Below, piece by piece: positions 1,401 to 25,532 of a stretch of 39,504 bases of DNA (within the stretch, counting starts at the first letter, position 1; every line of letters begins with the position of its first letter). A program made the translations under genes and the position numbers. The stretch spans positions 1 to 39,504 of the forward strand of contig JAAFIC010000024.1 in the NCBI GenBank assembly GCA_013298565.1. Reading direction: 5' to 3'. Below the pieces are notes generated by a model. It made no database searches. It was given only the letters and a program-made list of their open reading frames with translations, and was not told the origin of the DNA. Source of the DNA: Alphaproteobacteria bacterium (GTDB lineage Bacteria > Pseudomonadota > Alphaproteobacteria > Elsterales > Elsteraceae).

Positions 1401-3221
1401 TTAGCCCGCGTGATGGTCTTTTCCAATTCGAATGCCATCGGCCTCCCCGTGCCGCCAATGGAGAACTAGGTGCGGGCCCCGGACAGCGTCAGCGTCGGCC
1501 AGATCGGAGTCCTCGAACGCAAGCCGCGCGAACTGCTGGAGGGCGTTAGGCTTCCCAAACCGAATGACCTCGTCTTCATCGACGATCTCCATCGAAGGCA
1601 AATCCAACGCCTGCTTCTCCCTAAGTTGCTCGTACAACAGCTTCGTCCTGGCGCGGAGGTAGCGAACCGGAGCGTCGACTTCCAGCGATCCCGCTCTCGT
1701 GCCGACCACCGCGAGGATCTGAACGATTGCCCGGTCGATGGCATCGACGTCGTCCTGCTTGACGAGCGGAAATGCAATCGACCCGGCGGACACTAGCTGC
1801 TGGCGCTGAGTCTCGTAGACCTTGACGATGTCCTGATCGACGAAACGATCCCGGTTCGCGCGCCACTCGTCGCGGCGACGGTAGCGAAGTGGCATGTCTT
1901 CCTTGAGGCGGTAGCCATTGGCCGCGACCGCGTCCGCAGCAATGGGTTCGCCCCAGCCCGCTGGCCAGTAGGTGCCCCCGCCGTATCCGTCGCGCGAGCG
2001 CTCGGAGTCGTTTCTCTTCGCGGTGAAACGCTTCACCATGCTCGGCAGCTTTTTGGCGCTTGCCAGAGCCGCCGCCGTGATACGGGCGGGCACACCCTTC
2101 TCGCCGGATAGTAGGTGCTGCACGAGCTGCATCATAAAGAACGGCGGGACGGCATTGCCGACCTGACGGTATTGCGCTTCCTTCGGGCCGAGGAACTCGA
2201 AGGAGTCTCTGAAACCCTGCAGGCGGGCGCCCTCGCGCACGGTCAGCGCGCGGTCGTGGATGGGATGCGTAAAGCAGCCGGAGGTGACGTTGTTGAAGCC
2301 AGCCGAGATCGTGTAAGCAGGCGAGGCCTGGTGAAGACGGCCGTAGAGCGTCGCGTAATCGGTCAAGCGGACACGGCGAAAGCGATCAGGCAGAAGCTCC
2401 GGCGGAATGTCCTTCCAGCAACCACCCTGCGGCACGGTGGCTACGCGCTTCCGGTTGATTTCCGACAGGTTGTTGCAGTGGTGGTTCGGTGCGAACCCCG
2501 AGCCGTCGCGAACATACGATTGGAACCGCGTCGGCTGACCACCGCGAGCCGCAAGCTTGATCACGGCCTTGCTGTCGGCCTGACCGACCGCCAGATCGGC
2601 GATGGCCTCGCTGACCGACACATATTCCTTCAGCTCGCCGTTCTTTACCGGAGCATGGGTATGGCGTGGGAACGTCGGTGGCACCTCATCGACGGTCGCG
2701 ATGAGAATGAAGCGGTTCCGCAGCTGCGGTAGACCGTAGTCCGCCATGTTCACGACGTCGGCGAAGACATGGTAGCCGCGCTCCTTGAAGAGCTTGAACA
2801 GCTCCCTGACGATAACGAGGTTCCGACCGTAGACAACGCCGGGCACGTTCTCCATGACGACGTTACGCGGTTTCCGGTCAGCCACGGTAAAGCCGTCGAG
2901 CAACCGGATGAAGTGGACGAAGAGAGCGTTCCGCGGGTCTTCAAGATGGAAGACGCCCATCGTGCTCACTGCTTGGCAGGTAGGCCCCGCGAAGAACCAG
3001 TCGATCTTCTCGATCCCTGCTCGCTCGATGACGTCGGCCGCCGACACGAGAGAAACGTCGCAACAGTCGACCACAGCTTCAGGGTGAGCATTTGCGAATG
3101 TCTTGGTGGCGTTGACGTCGATGTCGAGTGCCCACTTGACCTGCAGATCGGGAACGGCCGCCGCGGCTCCGGCTGACATCCCACCGCAGCCGGAATAGAG
3201 ATCGATTGCGACTTGACCCAT
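1401..3221 (-). CDS. DNA (cytosine-5-)-methyltransferase with long C-terminal extension
   Basis: A C5-cytosine DNA methyltransferase of about 606 residues that would transfer methyl from S-adenosylmethionine to cytosine in a specific site. Visible motifs in order: SAM-binding motif I (DLYSGCGGMS, residues 7-16), catalytic motif IV with Cys82, motif VI ENV (124-126), motif VIII QLRNR (166-170) and motif X (GNAVPP, about 355-360). The catalytic loop reads GPTCQ instead of the usual GPPCQ, so threonine replaces the proline before the nucleophile. The Dcm fold ends near residue 375; about 230 further residues follow that I cannot assign. The start at 3221 was chosen because GGGGAG lies just upstream and motif I then falls at the usual place; an ATG at 3233 is less likely. 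It lies on an integrase-bearing island, upstream of an unknown gene 44 bp away. Confidence 0.9.
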   Translation of the reverse strand: MGQVAIDLYSGCGGMSAGAAAAVPDLQVKWALDIDVNATKTFANAHPEAVVDCCDVSLVSAADVIERAGIEKIDWFFAGPTCQAVSTMGVFHLEDPRNALFVHFIRLLDGFTVADRKPRNVVMENVPGVVYGRNLVIVRELFKLFKERGYHVFADVVNMADYGLPQLRNRFILIATVDEVPPTFPRHTHAPVKNGELKEYVSVSEAIADLAVGQADSKAVIKLAARGGQPTRFQSYVRDGSGFAPNHHCNNLSEINRKRVATVPQGGCWKDIPPELLPDRFRRVRLTDYATLYGRLHQASPAYTISAGFNNVTSGCFTHPIHDRALTVREGARLQGFRDSFEFLGPKEAQYRQVGNAVPPFFMMQLVQHLLSGEKGVPARITAAALASAKKLPSMVKRFTAKRNDSERSRDGYGGGTYWPAGWGEPIAADAVAANGYRLKEDMPLRYRRRDEWRANRDRFVDQDIVKVYETQRQQLVSAGSIAFPLVKQDDVDAIDRAIVQILAVVGTRAGSLEVDAPVRYLRARTKLLYEQLREKQALDLPSMEIVDEDEVIRFGKPNALQQFARLAFEDSDLADADAVRGPHLVLHWRHGEADGIRIGKDHHAG

Positions 3222-3334
3222 AGTTCTCCCCATACATTCCAGCAAACTTAGCAGCACGCGATGCACGCTTCGATAGAAAAGATAGCTTACCCAGAACTAT
3301 TTCTTGAAACAGTTCGAAGACACTCGCAGATGTT

Positions 3335-4215
3335 TTATGCGAGCTTGCCCTCTGCACTATACGATGCACGAAACCTCCCCCTCCCCGCCATCTCGCGCAG
3401 GCCGACCTCCAAAACGATTCGTCGCGCCGCCTGCGGCGTGACGTCGAGTGTTTTCGCCACCATCCCGGCCGACACCAACTGCCTTGCCATCACCAGCTCG
3501 ACCAGCTCCCGCAGTTTGACGACGTTCGTCTTCCTGCCAATTTGGGCTCCATCATCTGGCGAGCGAGCACCAGCCGGTCATGTTCTTTGATGCCGACCTC
3601 GGCGGCCGCGATCAGGCCGTGGGCGATCGCAAGCAGCCGCGTCTCCCGGTCACGATGCCGGCGCCGATCGACGGGAATGGTTTAGAGACCAGCATTGATG
3701 GAAACGAGAGGCCGCCAGTGGTGATGCCGACCTGGCGCAGGATCGCAGCGACAAATAGCCGGCCGAGCCAAGGGGCATGCTGAAGGACCGAAATTTCGTT
3801 CCAGACATCAAGGACGATAACGGCCTGCAGCACCACCGGCAAATCATGCACCTGCCGCAGCACCGCACGCCATTCGTCCAGCCGGGCATCCTCGTCCCAG
3901 TCGAGATCGTAGAACATCGAATCTTTTTCGGCAGCATGGCTGCCGCCGTCACGGCCGGGCCGTGTAGCACTCTCGATCGCTGCATCCGATCGGCCAGCAG
4001 TGCATCGATGTCGTCACCGTCCTCTCCCTCCCCTTCCCGATAGATCACGGCCGTAGGCCGAATGACCCCGGCCGTCTCGGCCTCATCCATGCCGACCGAC
4101 GTAATCTTTGACGCCTGTCGGAGCCTCTGTAATCCGTCGGCGGACAGCGCCCAGGCGGATGACTGGCCATAAATGCGTCGGCGGGTGCGGAGACCCGATG
4201 ACAGCGTCCTTCGGG
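3335..4215 (-). pseudogene. Decayed RHE_PE00001/DUF1612-type helix-turn-helix protein
   Basis: Pieces of one protein lie in order but in different minus-strand frames. Around 4170-3960 the frame reads RRRIYGQ...WALSADGLQRLR and an acidic [12 protein letters not shown] stretch. After a frameshift near 3950 it reads [16 protein letters not shown]...[10 protein letters not shown]. After a further shift near 3720 it reads SINAGL, an in-frame TAA (about 3682-3684), then [12 protein letters not shown]...IKEHDRLVLARQ. After another shift near 3510 it ends with the helix-turn-helix tail LVSAGMVAKTLDVTPQAARR and GRGRFRA. This order matches the RHE_PE00001 family (DUF1612 plus C-terminal HTH) common on rhizobial plasmids, as I remember it. 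The usual last residues are replaced, and translation would stop at 3335-3337. At least three frameshifts and one nonsense codon make it a dead gene, marking an older plasmid-like insertion. Confidence 0.75.
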
Positions 4216-4401
4216 AGCGGATGCGCGTTACAGCGCGTGAGCGTCGTCGCTCGGCTAAACAGCACTTGCGGCATGCCCGCTTTGCACCTGTTGATTTGGG
4301 AATTTGTGTTTTATATTGGGGAGTTAGCGTTTGATGGCAGCGCTGTGGCGCAGAGGATCGTAGTTTTGGGCTGCTGCCGGATAGCGTGTCGTGCTGTAGA
4401 G

Positions 4402-4436
4402 TGGTTGCGGGGGCAAGATTTGAACCTGCTACCGTC
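4402..4436 (-). other. 3' fragment of an initiator tRNA(fMet)-like gene next to the integrase stop
   Basis: Read on the minus strand, this stretch has a T-arm (GCAGG stem, TTCAAAT loop, CTTGC stem), then CCCCGCA, a discriminator A and CCA. The A at position 72 of the acceptor is typical of bacterial initiator tRNA. Nothing upstream completes a tRNA; the integrase stop codon lies 3 bp away. Such fragments mark att cores of tRNA-targeting integrases. It may be the attP-derived core of this integrase or the scar of another integration. Confidence 0.6.
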
Positions 4437-4439
4437 ACG

Positions 4440-5720
4440 CTACGAACCCGAAGACGGCTCCCTCCCCTTCCCGACCGCCCTTAACCCCGCCGCCGCCGGA
4501 GCCGCCGCCCTCTCCGCCAGTTCCGCCCGCGCCGCGCCCGCAAAGTGGATATACTTCTGCGTCGTCGACATCTGGCTATGCCCCAGCGCCGCCATCAGTT
4601 GCGCGGCCTGAGCCCCATCCAAAGCCATCCATGACGCAACCGAATGTCTCAGCGAATACGGCACAATCCCCTCCGGAAAGTCCGCCGCGGGGCGGACCTT
4701 TTCGCGCCAGATGGTGGCATAGGAAAGCGGGCCGTCGCCTTTTGAGGGGCGGAAGACGTAGTCGTCGGGGGTGCCGGGGGGTTGGCGGGTGACGATGGCG
4801 AGGCCGTCTTCGGTGAGGGGGATGATGCGGTTGCGGCCGGTGGCTTTGCCCGCCTTATGTTTGTCGGGCGGTAGCACGATGGCGCTGGCGCGCAGGTCGA
4901 TGTGTTTCCACTGGCAGCGGGTGATTTCGGCCGGGCGGGCGCCGGTCAGGGCCATCATCCGGAAGGCGTCGGCTACTGCCGGGCGGATGCGGCGTTCTTC
5001 TTCCAGTTGCGCGAGCGCCGCGAAGAGACGGACGTAGTGGGCCGGATCGTCGAGGAAGGCTTCGCGATGGGCTTGCGGCGGCAGTTTGAAGCCGTTGGCG
5101 GGATGCTCCTTCAGCAGCCCCTCGCTGACCGCCCAGTTCAGGCAGGTGCGCAGCACGATGATGCAGTCACGGGCCGCTGTTGCGCCGCCGCGGGCGCGGA
5201 TGAAGCCGCGGGGTTTATCGCTTTTCTGATGCTTCTGGCTCTGGCCGTCGCGGATGGCGGCGAAGGCTTTGCGAATTTGCTCCAGGGTCAGGGCTTCGGC
5301 GAAGACGGACCCAACCAAGGGGCGCAGATGATGGTCGATCCGGCCGATGTCGAGCGGCCGGGCGCTGTCGGCTTTGGCGGCGAAGCGAGCTGAGGCGAGG
5401 TAGCGGTCGAAGAGATCGTTGAGGGTGAACGCTTCCCGCGCCCCCTGCTTCACCGCCAGCGGATCGCCTCCGGCGCGGACGAGGGCCGACCAGCCTTCGG
5501 CGATGGCGCGGGCTTGATCGGGGGTCAACGCGCCGAGTTTGCCGATGGTGGCACGGCGTTTCTGGCCGTTGGCATTACGGTAATCAAAGATGTAACTGGC
5601 CGCGCCGGAGGGCAGGCAAAGGAAGCCGAAGCCCTTCACGTCCGTATCCCAAAGCACGGTTCGCGTCTCAAAAACCTGCGTCCGTGTCACATCAATTAGG
5701 CGTTTCGATAGCTTCGGCAC
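4440..5720 (-). CDS. Tyrosine-type site-specific integrase
   Basis: A 426-residue tyrosine recombinase of the P4-like class that would excise and insert the island at a tRNA/tmRNA 3' end. An N-terminal arm-binding DUF4102-like domain (about 1-90, with DVKGFGFLCLPSG and the RRATIGKLGALTPDQAR segment) is followed by a core-binding region and the catalytic domain. Expected catalytic residues are visible: Arg262 in TGARPAEI, a Lys near 287-289, Arg358 in YSLRHS, His381 in LGHSQMSTTQ and Tyr390 as nucleophile. The usual His of HxxR is Tyr355, a variation seen in some integrases. The gene is full length with no frameshift. Its stop lies 3 bp from an initiator-tRNA-like fragment, and its start faces a repeat-bearing 190-bp stretch that ends in a second tRNA fragment. 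Confidence 0.93.
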   Translation of the reverse strand: MPKLSKRLIDVTRTQVFETRTVLWDTDVKGFGFLCLPSGAASYIFDYRNANGQKRRATIGKLGALTPDQARAIAEGWSALVRAGGDPLAVKQGAREAFTLNDLFDRYLASARFAAKADSARPLDIGRIDHHLRPLVGSVFAEALTLEQIRKAFAAIRDGQSQKHQKSDKPRGFIRARGGATAARDCIIVLRTCLNWAVSEGLLKEHPANGFKLPPQAHREAFLDDPAHYVRLFAALAQLEEERRIRPAVADAFRMMALTGARPAEITRCQWKHIDLRASAIVLPPDKHKAGKATGRNRIIPLTEDGLAIVTRQPPGTPDDYVFRPSKGDGPLSYATIWREKVRPAADFPEGIVPYSLRHSVASWMALDGAQAAQLMAALGHSQMSTTQKYIHFAGAARAELAERAAAPAAAGLRAVGKGREPSSGS

Positions 5721-9537: not shown

Positions 9538-9669
9538 CTCTACGTCTTCGGCCCCACCGGCAGCGATAAGAGCAGCCTGATCCGCCAGGTGGCGGCCAAG
9601 CTCAACTATCCGGTCTTCGAGATCACCGGCCACGGGCGGCTGGAGTTCGCCGATCTTGCCGGGCATCTC
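9538..9669 (+). pseudogene. Fragment of a MoxR/CobS-like AAA ATPase
   Basis: The plus strand encodes YVFGPTGSDKSSLIRQ, then VAAKLNYPVFEITGHGRLEF and ADLAGHL, which match the start of the AAA core of CobS/MoxR-type ATPases carried by many rhizobial plasmids and ICEs. The Walker A loop has Asp where the invariant Gly of GxGKS should be. Similarity ends where the MITE begins, and what follows the MITE does not continue the domain. GC content jumps back to the genomic level here. It is a dead scrap. Confidence 0.65.
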
Positions 9670-9670
9670 A

Positions 9671-9831
9671 GAGGTTGTTTGGAAATTCGGCGGCTGAGAG
9701 ACTGCGAGGGATTTTTGGGACCTGATAGGAGCCAAGCGCAGCAGATATCGAGACTATCTGCAAGATTGGCGACGCAGCAGGGCGTAAAAAGACCCGCAGG
9801 ATCGACCCGTCCGACATTTTCAAACAGGCTC
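9671..9831 (-). mobile_element. 161-bp MITE, copy 1, flanked by TCA duplication
   Basis: Ends GAGGTTGTTTGGAAAT and, on the other strand, GAGCCTGTTTGAAAAT form terminal inverted repeats. The element is flanked by TCA (9668-9670) and TCA (9832-9834). A second copy of exactly the same length lies at 24435-24595 in opposite orientation, about 94% identical. It has no coding capacity. A 3-bp TNA duplication and these ends point to mobilisation by an IS5-family (IS1031-like) transposase, none of which is in the window. The gene-free stretch from here to 9994 shows nothing else. Confidence 0.85.
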
Positions 9832-9994
9832 TCAGCGCTTCTGTTAAGCAATCAGATGACCAATCGCGATTGGCACCCGACAGAATCTTGGGCTTGTGAC
9901 TGCCCCTCTGCCCCGGCGCAACACTCCTCGTCTCCCGAACCCGCAGCGCCCCTTGATCGCTGAACTCGCCGCCCCCCAAAGCGCGCCGCAGTTG

Positions 9995-23380: not shown

Positions 23381-24435
23381 ACCTGAACTTCGCCTCCGAT
23401 AATGTGGCCCCCGTGCCGCAAGAGATTTTGGAGGCGATTGCGGTCGCCAATCAATCCAGCGCTATGCCTTACGGTGCGGATGACATGACCGCCTTGGCCC
23501 TGCGCCGGTTCCGCGAGCTATTCGAGTGCGACCTGACGATGATCGCCGTCGCCACCGGCACTGCTGCCAATGCTTTGGCGCTAGCGTGCATCTGCCCGCC
23601 CTGGGGGGAAATCTACTGCCATGCCGACGCCCACATTACTGAAAGCGAGTGCGGCGCGCCGGAGTTTTTCACCAACGGCGCAAAACTGGTCCATATCCAA
23701 GGCGAACACGGCAAGATCACGCCGGAAGCCCTAAGCCGCACGCTCGCCACGACCGCGCCGGGTAATCCACAGAAAACTCAACCAGCGGCCCTGTCGCTCA
23801 GTCAAGCCACGGAATGCGGCACGCTGTATCAGCCGGACGAAATCCGCACGCTCACCGAAATCGCCCATGCTCACGGGTTGAAAGTGCATATGGATGGCGC
23901 GCGCTTCGCCAATGCCGTCGCCACGCTGGCAACCGCCCCGTCCGAGATTACTTGGGAAGCCGGAGTGGACGTGCTGTCTTTCGGTGCGACGAAGAACGGC
24001 GCGATGGCGGCAGAAGCCGTGCTGTTTTTCGACCCCGACCTTGCCCACGAGGCCGCGTTTCGGCGCAAGCGCGCCGGGCATCTCTTCTCTAAAATGCGCT
24101 TTCTGTCCGCTCAACTCGCCGCCAGCCTGGCCGATGGCCGCTGGTTATCTTGGGCCAATCAGGCGAACCTCATGGCCGAACGGATGGTCTCCGGCCTGCT
24201 GCGCGTCCCCGGCACGCGCCTGCTGTATCCGCGCGAGGTGAACGAAGTCTTCGTGACTGTGCCAAGCGGCGTCGCCGATGGGCTAGACGCCGACGGTATC
24301 GGCTTCTACCGCTGGGGCGGGCAAGCATCGTCGGACCTGCGGTTCGTCACTAACTGGGGGACCAAGCCGGAGGATGTGGATTATCTGGTGGACCGGGCGC
24401 TCCTGCACGCGGCGCGCGGGGGGCGGGGTGCTTAG
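23377..24435 (+). CDS. Low-specificity threonine aldolase (beta-eliminating lyase family)
   Basis: A PLP enzyme of 352 residues that cleaves L-threonine or allo-threonine to glycine and acetaldehyde. Signature segments are FASDNVAPVP, ATGTAANALALA, HITESECGAPEFF, VHMDGARFANA (Asp173) and LSFGATKNGAM with the PLP-binding Lys206. The ATG at 23377 overlaps the upstream stop and puts FASDN at the family start; the longer frame from 23206 overlaps the previous gene and is rejected. The last base of its TAG stop (24435) is the first base of a MITE. Confidence 0.92.
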   Translation: MNLNFASDNVAPVPQEILEAIAVANQSSAMPYGADDMTALALRRFRELFECDLTMIAVATGTAANALALACICPPWGEIYCHADAHITESECGAPEFFTNGAKLVHIQGEHGKITPEALSRTLATTAPGNPQKTQPAALSLSQATECGTLYQPDEIRTLTEIAHAHGLKVHMDGARFANAVATLATAPSEITWEAGVDVLSFGATKNGAMAAEAVLFFDPDLAHEAAFRRKRAGHLFSKMRFLSAQLAASLADGRWLSWANQANLMAERMVSGLLRVPGTRLLYPREVNEVFVTVPSGVADGLDADGIGFYRWGGQASSDLRFVTNWGTKPEDVDYLVDRALLHAARGGRGA

Positions 24436-24595
24436 AGCCTGTTTGAAAATGTCGGGCGGGTCGATCCTGCGGGTCTTTTCGTGTCCTGCTGCGTCGCCAA
24501 TCTTGCAGATATTCTCGATATCTGCTGCGCTTGGCTCCTATCAGGCCCCAAAAATCCCTCGCAGGCTCTCAGCCGCCGAATTTCCAGACAGCCTC
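24435..24595 (+). mobile_element. 161-bp MITE, copy 2, flanked by TTA duplication
   Basis: Same length as copy 1, inverted relative to it, with about ten differences. Ends are GAGCCTGTTTGAAAAT and, on the other strand, GAGGCTGTCTGGAAAT. It is flanked by TTA at 24432-24434 and 24596-24598. Removing it and one TTA restores a junction at which the aldolase TAG and the minus-strand TAA overlap. Confidence 0.88.
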
Positions 24596-25225
24596 TTAGA
24601 GCGGGTCTATATAGTTTAAGCGAGACCGCAAACCGGACAAAACGTCGTCGAAAGTAAAGCAGGTCATTTTATGAGAGGCGAAAGAGACATTCTTCGTCCA
24701 CCAGTCCAAACGCTTTTTATCGATTTCATTCTGGAGATCGGCTTTTCGGCCTATAACCAATAAGAAATTTACGTGCGGGTCTCTAAGGCCAAAAATTTCC
24801 TGCGTCTTATCTGTATTAATTTGCGAAGACAGAATGCGCGCCCAATCAACGAGCTGAGAAAAACCGTGCTCGAAACGTGGCGACCACCGTGGCAGCCCTC
24901 CAGTCGCTGAGGGCCTACCGAAAATGCTATTAGGCTGCGCGTCCTCAAATTCGATTAGGGTAAAATGACCATTATTACTATCACCTGAAGCAGCATCGCA
25001 TTGGAAATCGCCATATAGATCGAGTTCCAAAGCATATCGGTCTGGAGCCTCCTCGCCACCCGACAACAATCCAAGCGCAGCAACGAGCAAAGGACGCTTC
25101 TTAAAGAAAGGTAAAACCTGTTTTCGTTCCTGAAGATGACTAGAGTTATTCAGAAAATCATCAAACTCATCCAATTGTTGCCGTAACAACGAAGGGTCTG
25201 ATGTAATTGGCATGAGTTTTTTCAT
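24596..25225 (-). CDS. Shedu-like (DUF4263-type) putative nuclease
   Basis: A 209-residue protein. The N-terminal part (LRQQLDEFDDFLNNSSHLQE, then RKQVLPFFKKRPLLVAALGL) matches the helical lead-in of Shedu-type proteins. The core reads ELDLYGDFQCDAA, then FTLIEFEDAQPNSIF, then RWSPRFEHGFSQLVDWARIL. In DUF4263 proteins this is a PD-(D/E)XK-like nuclease; candidate metal ligands here are Asp77, Glu92 and Glu94, with Gln124 further on. The usual Lys of E-x-K is Glu. Shedu proteins are known single-gene antiphage systems. The start at 25225 follows the upstream stop by one base and has no ribosome site of its own, so it depends on coupling. The stop TAA lies in the MITE target duplication. The assignment is from memory of the family. 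Confidence 0.6.
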   Translation of the reverse strand: MKKLMPITSDPSLLRQQLDEFDDFLNNSSHLQERKQVLPFFKKRPLLVAALGLLSGGEEAPDRYALELDLYGDFQCDAASGDSNNGHFTLIEFEDAQPNSIFGRPSATGGLPRWSPRFEHGFSQLVDWARILSSQINTDKTQEIFGLRDPHVNFLLVIGRKADLQNEIDKKRLDWWTKNVSFASHKMTCFTFDDVLSGLRSRLNYIDPL

Positions 25226-25226
25226 G

Positions 25227-25532
25227 CTATACGTGCCGTTCGGCCGACTTCCCCTGAAAAGTCCGAACTTGACTGAGTCGCAGTATATCAACAACGTGAA
25301 GCGTCTCGCTGTCACGAGTAACCACAACACGCAAATCTGAGCCTACTTTCAGAACAAAGGTCGGTTCGCCATCTTCAGTAAGCTCTGTGGAAAGTTGATG
25401 GAGCCGCCCTTCCGATACCAAAAAATCAAATCTTTCCAATGCATTCCGCAAAGAAACATTGACCGAGTGACGATCCTGATCACTCAGCCGTTCATACACT
25501 GCACTCGCCAATGTTTCCCACTGCATATCCAT
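25227..25532 (-). CDS. Small RelE/ParE-like protein coupled to the Shedu-like gene
   Basis: A protein of 101 residues. A helical front (WETLASAVYERLSDQDRHSV, NVSLRNALERFDFLV) is followed by strands PTFVLKVGSDLRVVVTRD and LHVVDILRL, the order and spacing of RelE/ParE-type mRNA-interferase-fold proteins. Typical catalytic residues are not obvious, so toxin activity is uncertain. The start is ATG at 25532 or 25526. A -10 TATTAT ends 7 bp before the first, so the mRNA may be leaderless. Stop TAG and the next ATG are one base apart (TAGCATG). No antitoxin-like partner is present, so the Shedu-like protein is its only obvious companion. A longer frame upstream overlaps the efflux pump and is rejected. 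Confidence 0.7.
   Translation of the reverse strand: MDMQWETLASAVYERLSDQDRHSVNVSLRNALERFDFLVSEGRLHQLSTELTEDGEPTFVLKVGSDLRVVVTRDSETLHVVDILRLSQVRTFQGKSAERHV

Follow-up and report, generated by a model that had tools for sequence, protein, structure and literature searches.

A recurrent gene pair of a RelE-fold protein and a compact Shedu-family nuclease domain as a candidate two-part defence system

The gene pair in the window

The window is the whole stretch of DNA that we analysed, 39,504 nucleotides of a contig from an alphaproteobacterium of the Elsteraceae. Two minus-strand genes in it, which we call A and B, are separated by a single base, so that the stop codon of A and the start codon of B make up TAG-C-ATG (Table 1). 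Both reading frames and the junction are as an earlier, sequence-only reading had described them. It had also claimed that B has no ribosome site of its own, and we find no Shine-Dalgarno-like purine run 5–13 bases before the ATG of B; the closest one, AGGGGAAG, is about 20 bases upstream and lies within A.

In the window, A lies between B and a divergent MFS transporter gene, and the gene on the far side of B is beta-eliminating lyase/threonine-aldolase-like. None of the flanking ORFs in the window is antitoxin-like, in agreement with the earlier remark that A has no antitoxin, and A lacks the adjacent antitoxin gene of a type II toxin-antitoxin system. There is also no obvious defence island around the site, which counts against the split-Shedu reading that we favour below. 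The arrangement of A and B is not a chance one: B has profile matches, and every intact relative that we examined has the same gene order.

Table 1. Features of the A/B locus, with positions in the window.
Feature	Position	Strand	Basis
Gene A, RelE/ParE-fold partner	25227-25532	-	ORF, 101 aa from ATG
Gene B, compact Shedu-family (SduA_C/DUF4263) nuclease-domain protein	24596-25225	-	ORF, 209 aa from ATG
A/B junction TAG-C-ATG: A stop, 1 base, B start	25223-25229	-	sequence
Predicted PD-(D/E)XK-type site codons of B	24944-24997	-	D77 24995-24997, E92 24950-24952, E94 24944-24946
Cassette with A, B and the repeat, absent from a same-genus genome	24429-25631		blastn to G001 locus L107
Repeated element of about 165 bp abutting B	24430-24600	+	own-genome DNA search

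Gene B, a compact Shedu-family nuclease domain

B matches the Pfam SduA_C family (PF14082) at 5.6e-19 with 69.3 bits, where the curated cut-off is 27, and it matches the PADLOC SduA model PDLC00379 over its full length at 7.8e-54. All 15 clade members that we scanned match the PADLOC model, and NCBI names the relatives of B 'Shedu immune nuclease family protein'. The AlphaFold2 model of B (pLDDT 92.1) has its best PDB matches in E. coli SduA (8ps4, Z 13.6 over 184 residues) and B. cereus Shedu (8ti9, Z 13.5). FokI comes next at 8.4, and the Shedu scores are well above those of unrelated nucleases (8.4 or less), which places B in the PD-(D/E)XK fold. A Shedu match in the PDB came from structure comparison and not from the A2 sequence profile. 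The sequence-only reading had assigned B to Shedu/DUF4263; profiles and structure bear this out, and the predicted model gives no sign of a fold unlike DUF4263.

Because the structural match covers just residues 202–408 of EcSduA, we take B to be the nuclease domain alone. At 209 aa it lacks the fused N-terminal regulatory domain of type I Shedu; in EcSduA, the N-terminal half is a sensor clamp (PMC12904381). The earlier call of a stand-alone antiphage nuclease thus stands for the Shedu family, but not for the well-studied stand-alone type, as B belongs to a distinct clade with an E-x-E motif.

The predicted active-site residues of B (D77, E92 and E94) are kept in 26 of 26 non-redundant relatives, and Q124 and D127 are likewise invariant in the 26 distant relatives. 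The active-site Asp and Glu align with those of canonical Shedu. E94 occupies the position of the lysine in the canonical E-x-K motif; most of the aligned canonical Shedu loci have Lys there, and all 26 clade members have Glu. BamHI has a D/E/E catalytic set in the same fold, which the D77/E92/E94 site of B resembles. The conservation of these three residues argues for an active site that is maintained but altered. In VcSduA the E-x-K lysine is essential (K557A; PMC12137116). Since this lysine is missing in B, we consider DNA nuclease activity of B likely but not certain.

Gene A, a RelE fold with an altered catalytic position

By itself, A has no significant match among the Pfam, NCBIfam, PADLOC and PHROGs profiles. 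We aligned 18 proteins encoded upstream of B relatives (alignment A1), and the profile from this alignment finds RelE (1wmi) first among solved structures, at 1e-5, and YoeB at 3e-4. The link of A to RelE is therefore visible by sequence only through the family alignment. Weak ParE_toxin matches occur in 9 of the 18 relatives (best 3e-4), whereas A of the window has no ParE/RelE match and does not reach the curated Pfam cut-off. The AlphaFold2 model of A (pLDDT 83.6) matches RelE, ParE, YoeB and HigB structures with a best Z of 11.4, to E. coli RelE (4fxh), and among the best 50 aligned entries nearly all are of the RelE family. With the A1 profile matches to RelE and YoeB, this model supports the RelE/ParE fold that had been read from the order of helices and strands.

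We mapped R58 and R65 of aRelE, which we take to be functionally important, onto 33 non-redundant relatives of A through the 1wmi alignment. The equivalent of R65 is Arg in 28 of the 33. The equivalent of R58 is lost, with no Arg and only two Lys among the 33, whereas ordinary RelE relatives have Arg or Lys there in 13 of 13 cases, so the catalytic basic pair of RelE ribonucleases is incomplete in the A family. A near-invariant Asp, D82 in A of the window, is gained after the last strand (31/33). A His/Arg/Tyr-rich motif at the C-terminus is kept in cyanobacterial members and is missing from A of the window. Because the R58 equivalent is lost and the Asp is gained, A probably has no RelE-type RNase activity despite its fold, although the Arg kept in place of R65 means that some residual RNA-related activity is possible.

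Recurrence of the pair

The sequence-only reading had proposed a stable pairing of a RelE-fold protein with Shedu, to be looked for as conserved adjacency in other genomes and to be doubted if the pair did not recur. It does recur. With B as the query, 18 loci came out of 84,980 species genomes, and each has a RelE-like ORF upstream that is coupled to it; the ORF in Desulfonema is broken. To these we added plasmid and phage loci (Rhizobium rhizogenes Ri plasmids, Enterobacter phage-plasmids, Pantoea, Aliarcobacter and a Vibrio phage) and further cyanobacterial and other loci from searches of sampled genomes. An A-like gene is directly upstream in 36 of the 36 clade loci with an intact B: 34 were found by the A1 HMM, many of them outside the set from which the HMM was built; one (L021) has a divergent 84-aa relative of A that we recognised by eye; and one (L023, on an Enterobacter plasmid) has a frameshifted A beside its intact B, which counts against the split-Shedu reading. 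As a control we looked at 14 canonical Shedu loci, drawn from 398 Pseudomonadota genomes; none has an A-like gene. Short length of the Shedu protein is ruled out as the cause of the pairing by locus L072, a 237-aa canonical E-x-K Shedu without A.

The pair is present in at least six bacterial phyla (Pseudomonadota, Cyanobacteriota, Verrucomicrobiota, Planctomycetota and Campylobacterota, plus Desulfonema), and its carriers include plasmids, phage-plasmids and the Vibrio phage. A and B overlap by four bases (ATGA or GTGA) in 22 of the 36 inspected loci, where the window has a 1-base gap. A pair on an E. coli plasmid (L117) has a four-base overlap too. In a tree of the nuclease domain, a branch with 100/99 support sets all paired Shedus apart, and this paired clade has E-x-E where canonical Shedu has E-x-K. 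The pairing is also seen from the side of A: across 292 cyanobacterial genomes, an A profile has 17 matches with E<1e-14, each of which adjoins B or what is left of B, and ordinary RelE genes begin at 4e-12. The distances within A and B correlate (r 0.62; 0 of 2000 permutations), as would be expected of any co-inherited pair.

In plasmids, tblastn with A of the window found nothing and with a cyanobacterial A found Aliarcobacter only, and the A2 profile had no match in the viral contigs scanned. Two of the loci, L003 on a Verrucomicrobia MAG contig and L004 in Falsiroseomonas (Alphaproteobacteria), have nearly identical pairs with similar flanks, which could be either a recent transfer or a mis-binned contig. 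In the Vibrio phage (L027:3546-6784), the pair adjoins a gene noted as Gabija GajB-like, in a phage-borne defence cluster.

Fusions, remnants and mobility

The partner of B is not always a small protein. In Nostocales-type cyanobacteria it is a protein of about 400 aa that ends in the RelE-like domain and also contains an AHJR-like nuclease domain (PF18743, 7.5e-24) together with a weakly matched HEPN-like region (0.004); a RusA-type gene (PF05866) is coupled to its gene on the upstream side. The operon order is RusA-like, AHJR-nuclease-HEPN-RelE, Shedu, with all three genes overlapping (L007:4392-6684, also L005 and L017); L079 and L081 have the other operon genes intact but only a short remnant of Shedu. 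A Planctomycetia genome has a region ahead of the RelE-like domain that looks winged-helix-like by eye, with only a weak MarR match, and in another Planctomycetia locus (L032:578-1411) a 277-aa protein has an N-terminal domain without a Pfam family, then the RelE-like domain, and the Shedu gene is coupled to it. The size of B is constant across all of these fusion types. Single-chain Shedu proteins have exchangeable N-terminal sensors (summarised in PMC12137116), and the fusions of A mirror these, but in trans.

In our cyanobacterial sample, both genes are intact at 10 loci, and at 9 loci A is intact while B is broken or deleted; there is no case in this sample of an intact B with a broken A. 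This decay pattern fits a regulator A that does no harm and a B that carries the cost, but it is suggestive only, because some of the nine loci are related. That A persists where B is broken, together with the lost Arg of A, makes it unlikely that A is a toxin restrained by B. The earlier note had left open whether the small protein is regulator, inhibitor or effector. The degenerate catalytic position and the fact that A is tolerable without B point to a regulator or adaptor and away from an effector. At L085:1459-3023, the RelE-like gene is followed by the first third of a Shedu gene only and then by an ORF that is NTPase-like and may be an effector taken up in exchange.

The pair is also mobile. 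The GC content of A and B is about 46%, against about 62% in the flanks, and a same-genus genome has 57 bp of intergenic sequence in place of 1.2 kb of the window; this stretch is an acquired cassette. The repeat next to B is MITE-like, with seven near-full-length copies in the genome that are 88–93% identical, another copy being at 9666-9836. The stop codon of B (24596-24598) falls inside the repeat copy, and the end of the repeat apparently supplies it. Elsewhere in the window, a C-5 cytosine methylase (621 aa, with a long C-terminal extension), a 262-aa gene that has no PADLOC match and a tyrosine integrase lie in a row on the minus strand (1401-5720). They are likely to make up a small integrative element, which may serve restriction or defence.

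What the pair may do

It is very likely that A and B form one functional unit. What kind of unit is harder to say, and we give about an even chance to a split Shedu, in which B is a DNA nuclease and A a RelE-fold regulatory or sensor-docking subunit. This model builds on what we describe above: the folds of A and B, the recurrence of the pair and its coupling, the origin of the paired Shedus in a single clade, the modular fusions and the mobility. Together A and B, as two subunits, would make up a Shedu-type defence system that is horizontally mobile and acts against phages. B would be the effector, a counterpart of just the nuclease domain at the C-terminus of characterised Shedus, and A, minus the key residue of RNase toxins, would serve in trans where other Shedus have a fused N-terminal regulatory domain. 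We infer physical binding of A to B, with co-assembly favoured by coupled translation. As for the direction of regulation, A would keep B off the host DNA; the trigger would be invading DNA or another infection signal, on sensing which A would release or direct B. The RelE-like domain may be a common dock that plugs different sensors (AHJR nuclease plus HEPN, winged-helix-like, or the unassigned domain) into the same nuclease. More tentatively, we suggest that throughout this Shedu clade docking and sensing are the task of a non-catalytic RelE-fold domain, which would be a universal adaptor, either alone or fused to exchangeable sensors.

The nearest rival, which we consider unlikely, is that the DNA nuclease B is toxic to its own host and A is a plain inhibitor, making a reversed toxin-antitoxin or addiction module without phage sensing. 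Such a module would suit the cyanobacterial sample, where B does not outlive A and the reverse is common, and the presence of the pair on plasmids and phage-plasmids; Shedu expressed outside its own host can indeed be toxic (PMC12904381). However, A is often a large multi-domain protein with AHJR nuclease, HEPN or winged-helix-like parts, beyond what an inhibitor needs, B is akin to anti-phage Shedu, and B is intact at the Enterobacter plasmid locus despite its frameshifted A. It is also possible, if distinctly improbable, that both proteins are effectors, with A still working as a RelE-type mRNA interferase or a gyrase poison, so that growth arrest would come on top of DNA cleavage by B. The RelE fold, the Arg in place of R65 and the C-terminal motif of the cyanobacterial members would fit, but the R58 equivalent is lost in the family, A of the window is without that motif, no antitoxin gene is beside A, and A is intact at three loci where B is gone (L079, L081 and L085).

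The variant lysine raises another question, namely whether B is a catalytically dead Shedu fold that acts as a DNA-binding or scaffold subunit, with the activity in A or in the fused domains. The change of the E-x-K lysine to Glu in all members would be expected in this case. On the other hand, five positions are invariant in the 26 distant relatives, as for a maintained site, and BamHI, of the same fold, works with D/E/E; we give this explanation a low probability. A classical toxin-antitoxin system, in which A is the toxin and B has turned antitoxin, would also be a two-gene operon with a RelE-fold protein, but we hold it very improbable. Conservation of the B site would be unexpected for a mere antidote, and gene order and size are unlike RelBE and ParDE. 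We reject it because A persists without B, at no fewer than nine cyanobacterial loci where B is broken or deleted (at least 9).

Known systems and significance

B shares the nuclease fold, the SduA_C profile and the active-site D and E with the single-gene type I Shedus (EcSduA, BcSduA, VcSduA). These have a regulatory domain at the N-terminus of the same chain and an E-x-K motif, whereas B has no such domain, has E-x-E, belongs to a separate clade and is always encoded with an upstream RelE-fold partner. Likewise, A has the fold of RelE, ParE and YoeB toxins and weak profile similarity to them, but unlike them it has no antitoxin, has lost one catalytic Arg position, has the near-invariant Asp and is fixed to a nuclease gene. 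The logic that we propose for A and B is that of Hachiman HamAB, where a nuclease is restrained by a sensor subunit in trans until sensing occurs (PMC12278908); the likeness is one of proposed logic, and HamB is a helicase.

Some of this is already known. PADLOC (PDLC00379) and NCBI give Shedu names to B-type proteins but not to A-type proteins, which none of the scanned PADLOC models covers and which carry the annotation 'hypothetical protein'. The depositors of Vibrio phage 10N.286.54.E5_PE002 noted the same adjacent pair in genes 18–19 as 'RelE-like' and 'Shedu__SduA'; their record has domain notes only and does not claim a joint system. Our literature search found no paper on a RelE-like/Shedu pair, but the main Shedu surveys were beyond its reach, so an earlier description is possible and priority for describing the pair is not established.

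Shedu is treated as a single-gene defence in which infection is sensed by fused N-terminal domains, and the clade of B has no such domain. Since it always has a RelE-fold partner instead, a nuclease gene from this clade that is tested alone could miss the activity or score toxicity only. For annotation, we suggest that an SduA of 200–230 aa with E-x-E is a reason to look for a coupled upstream gene, and the copy on the E. coli plasmid makes the pair testable in laboratory strains. If A is a regulator, it would offer a small, genetically separable switch to control a Shedu nuclease, and it would show that a toxin fold can take on the role of an adaptor. We believe that this clade, annotated as a single protein, is probably a two-part defence machine. 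If so, RelE-fold proteins would have been recruited as regulators of DNA nucleases, and single-gene annotation of Shedu would miss half of the system.
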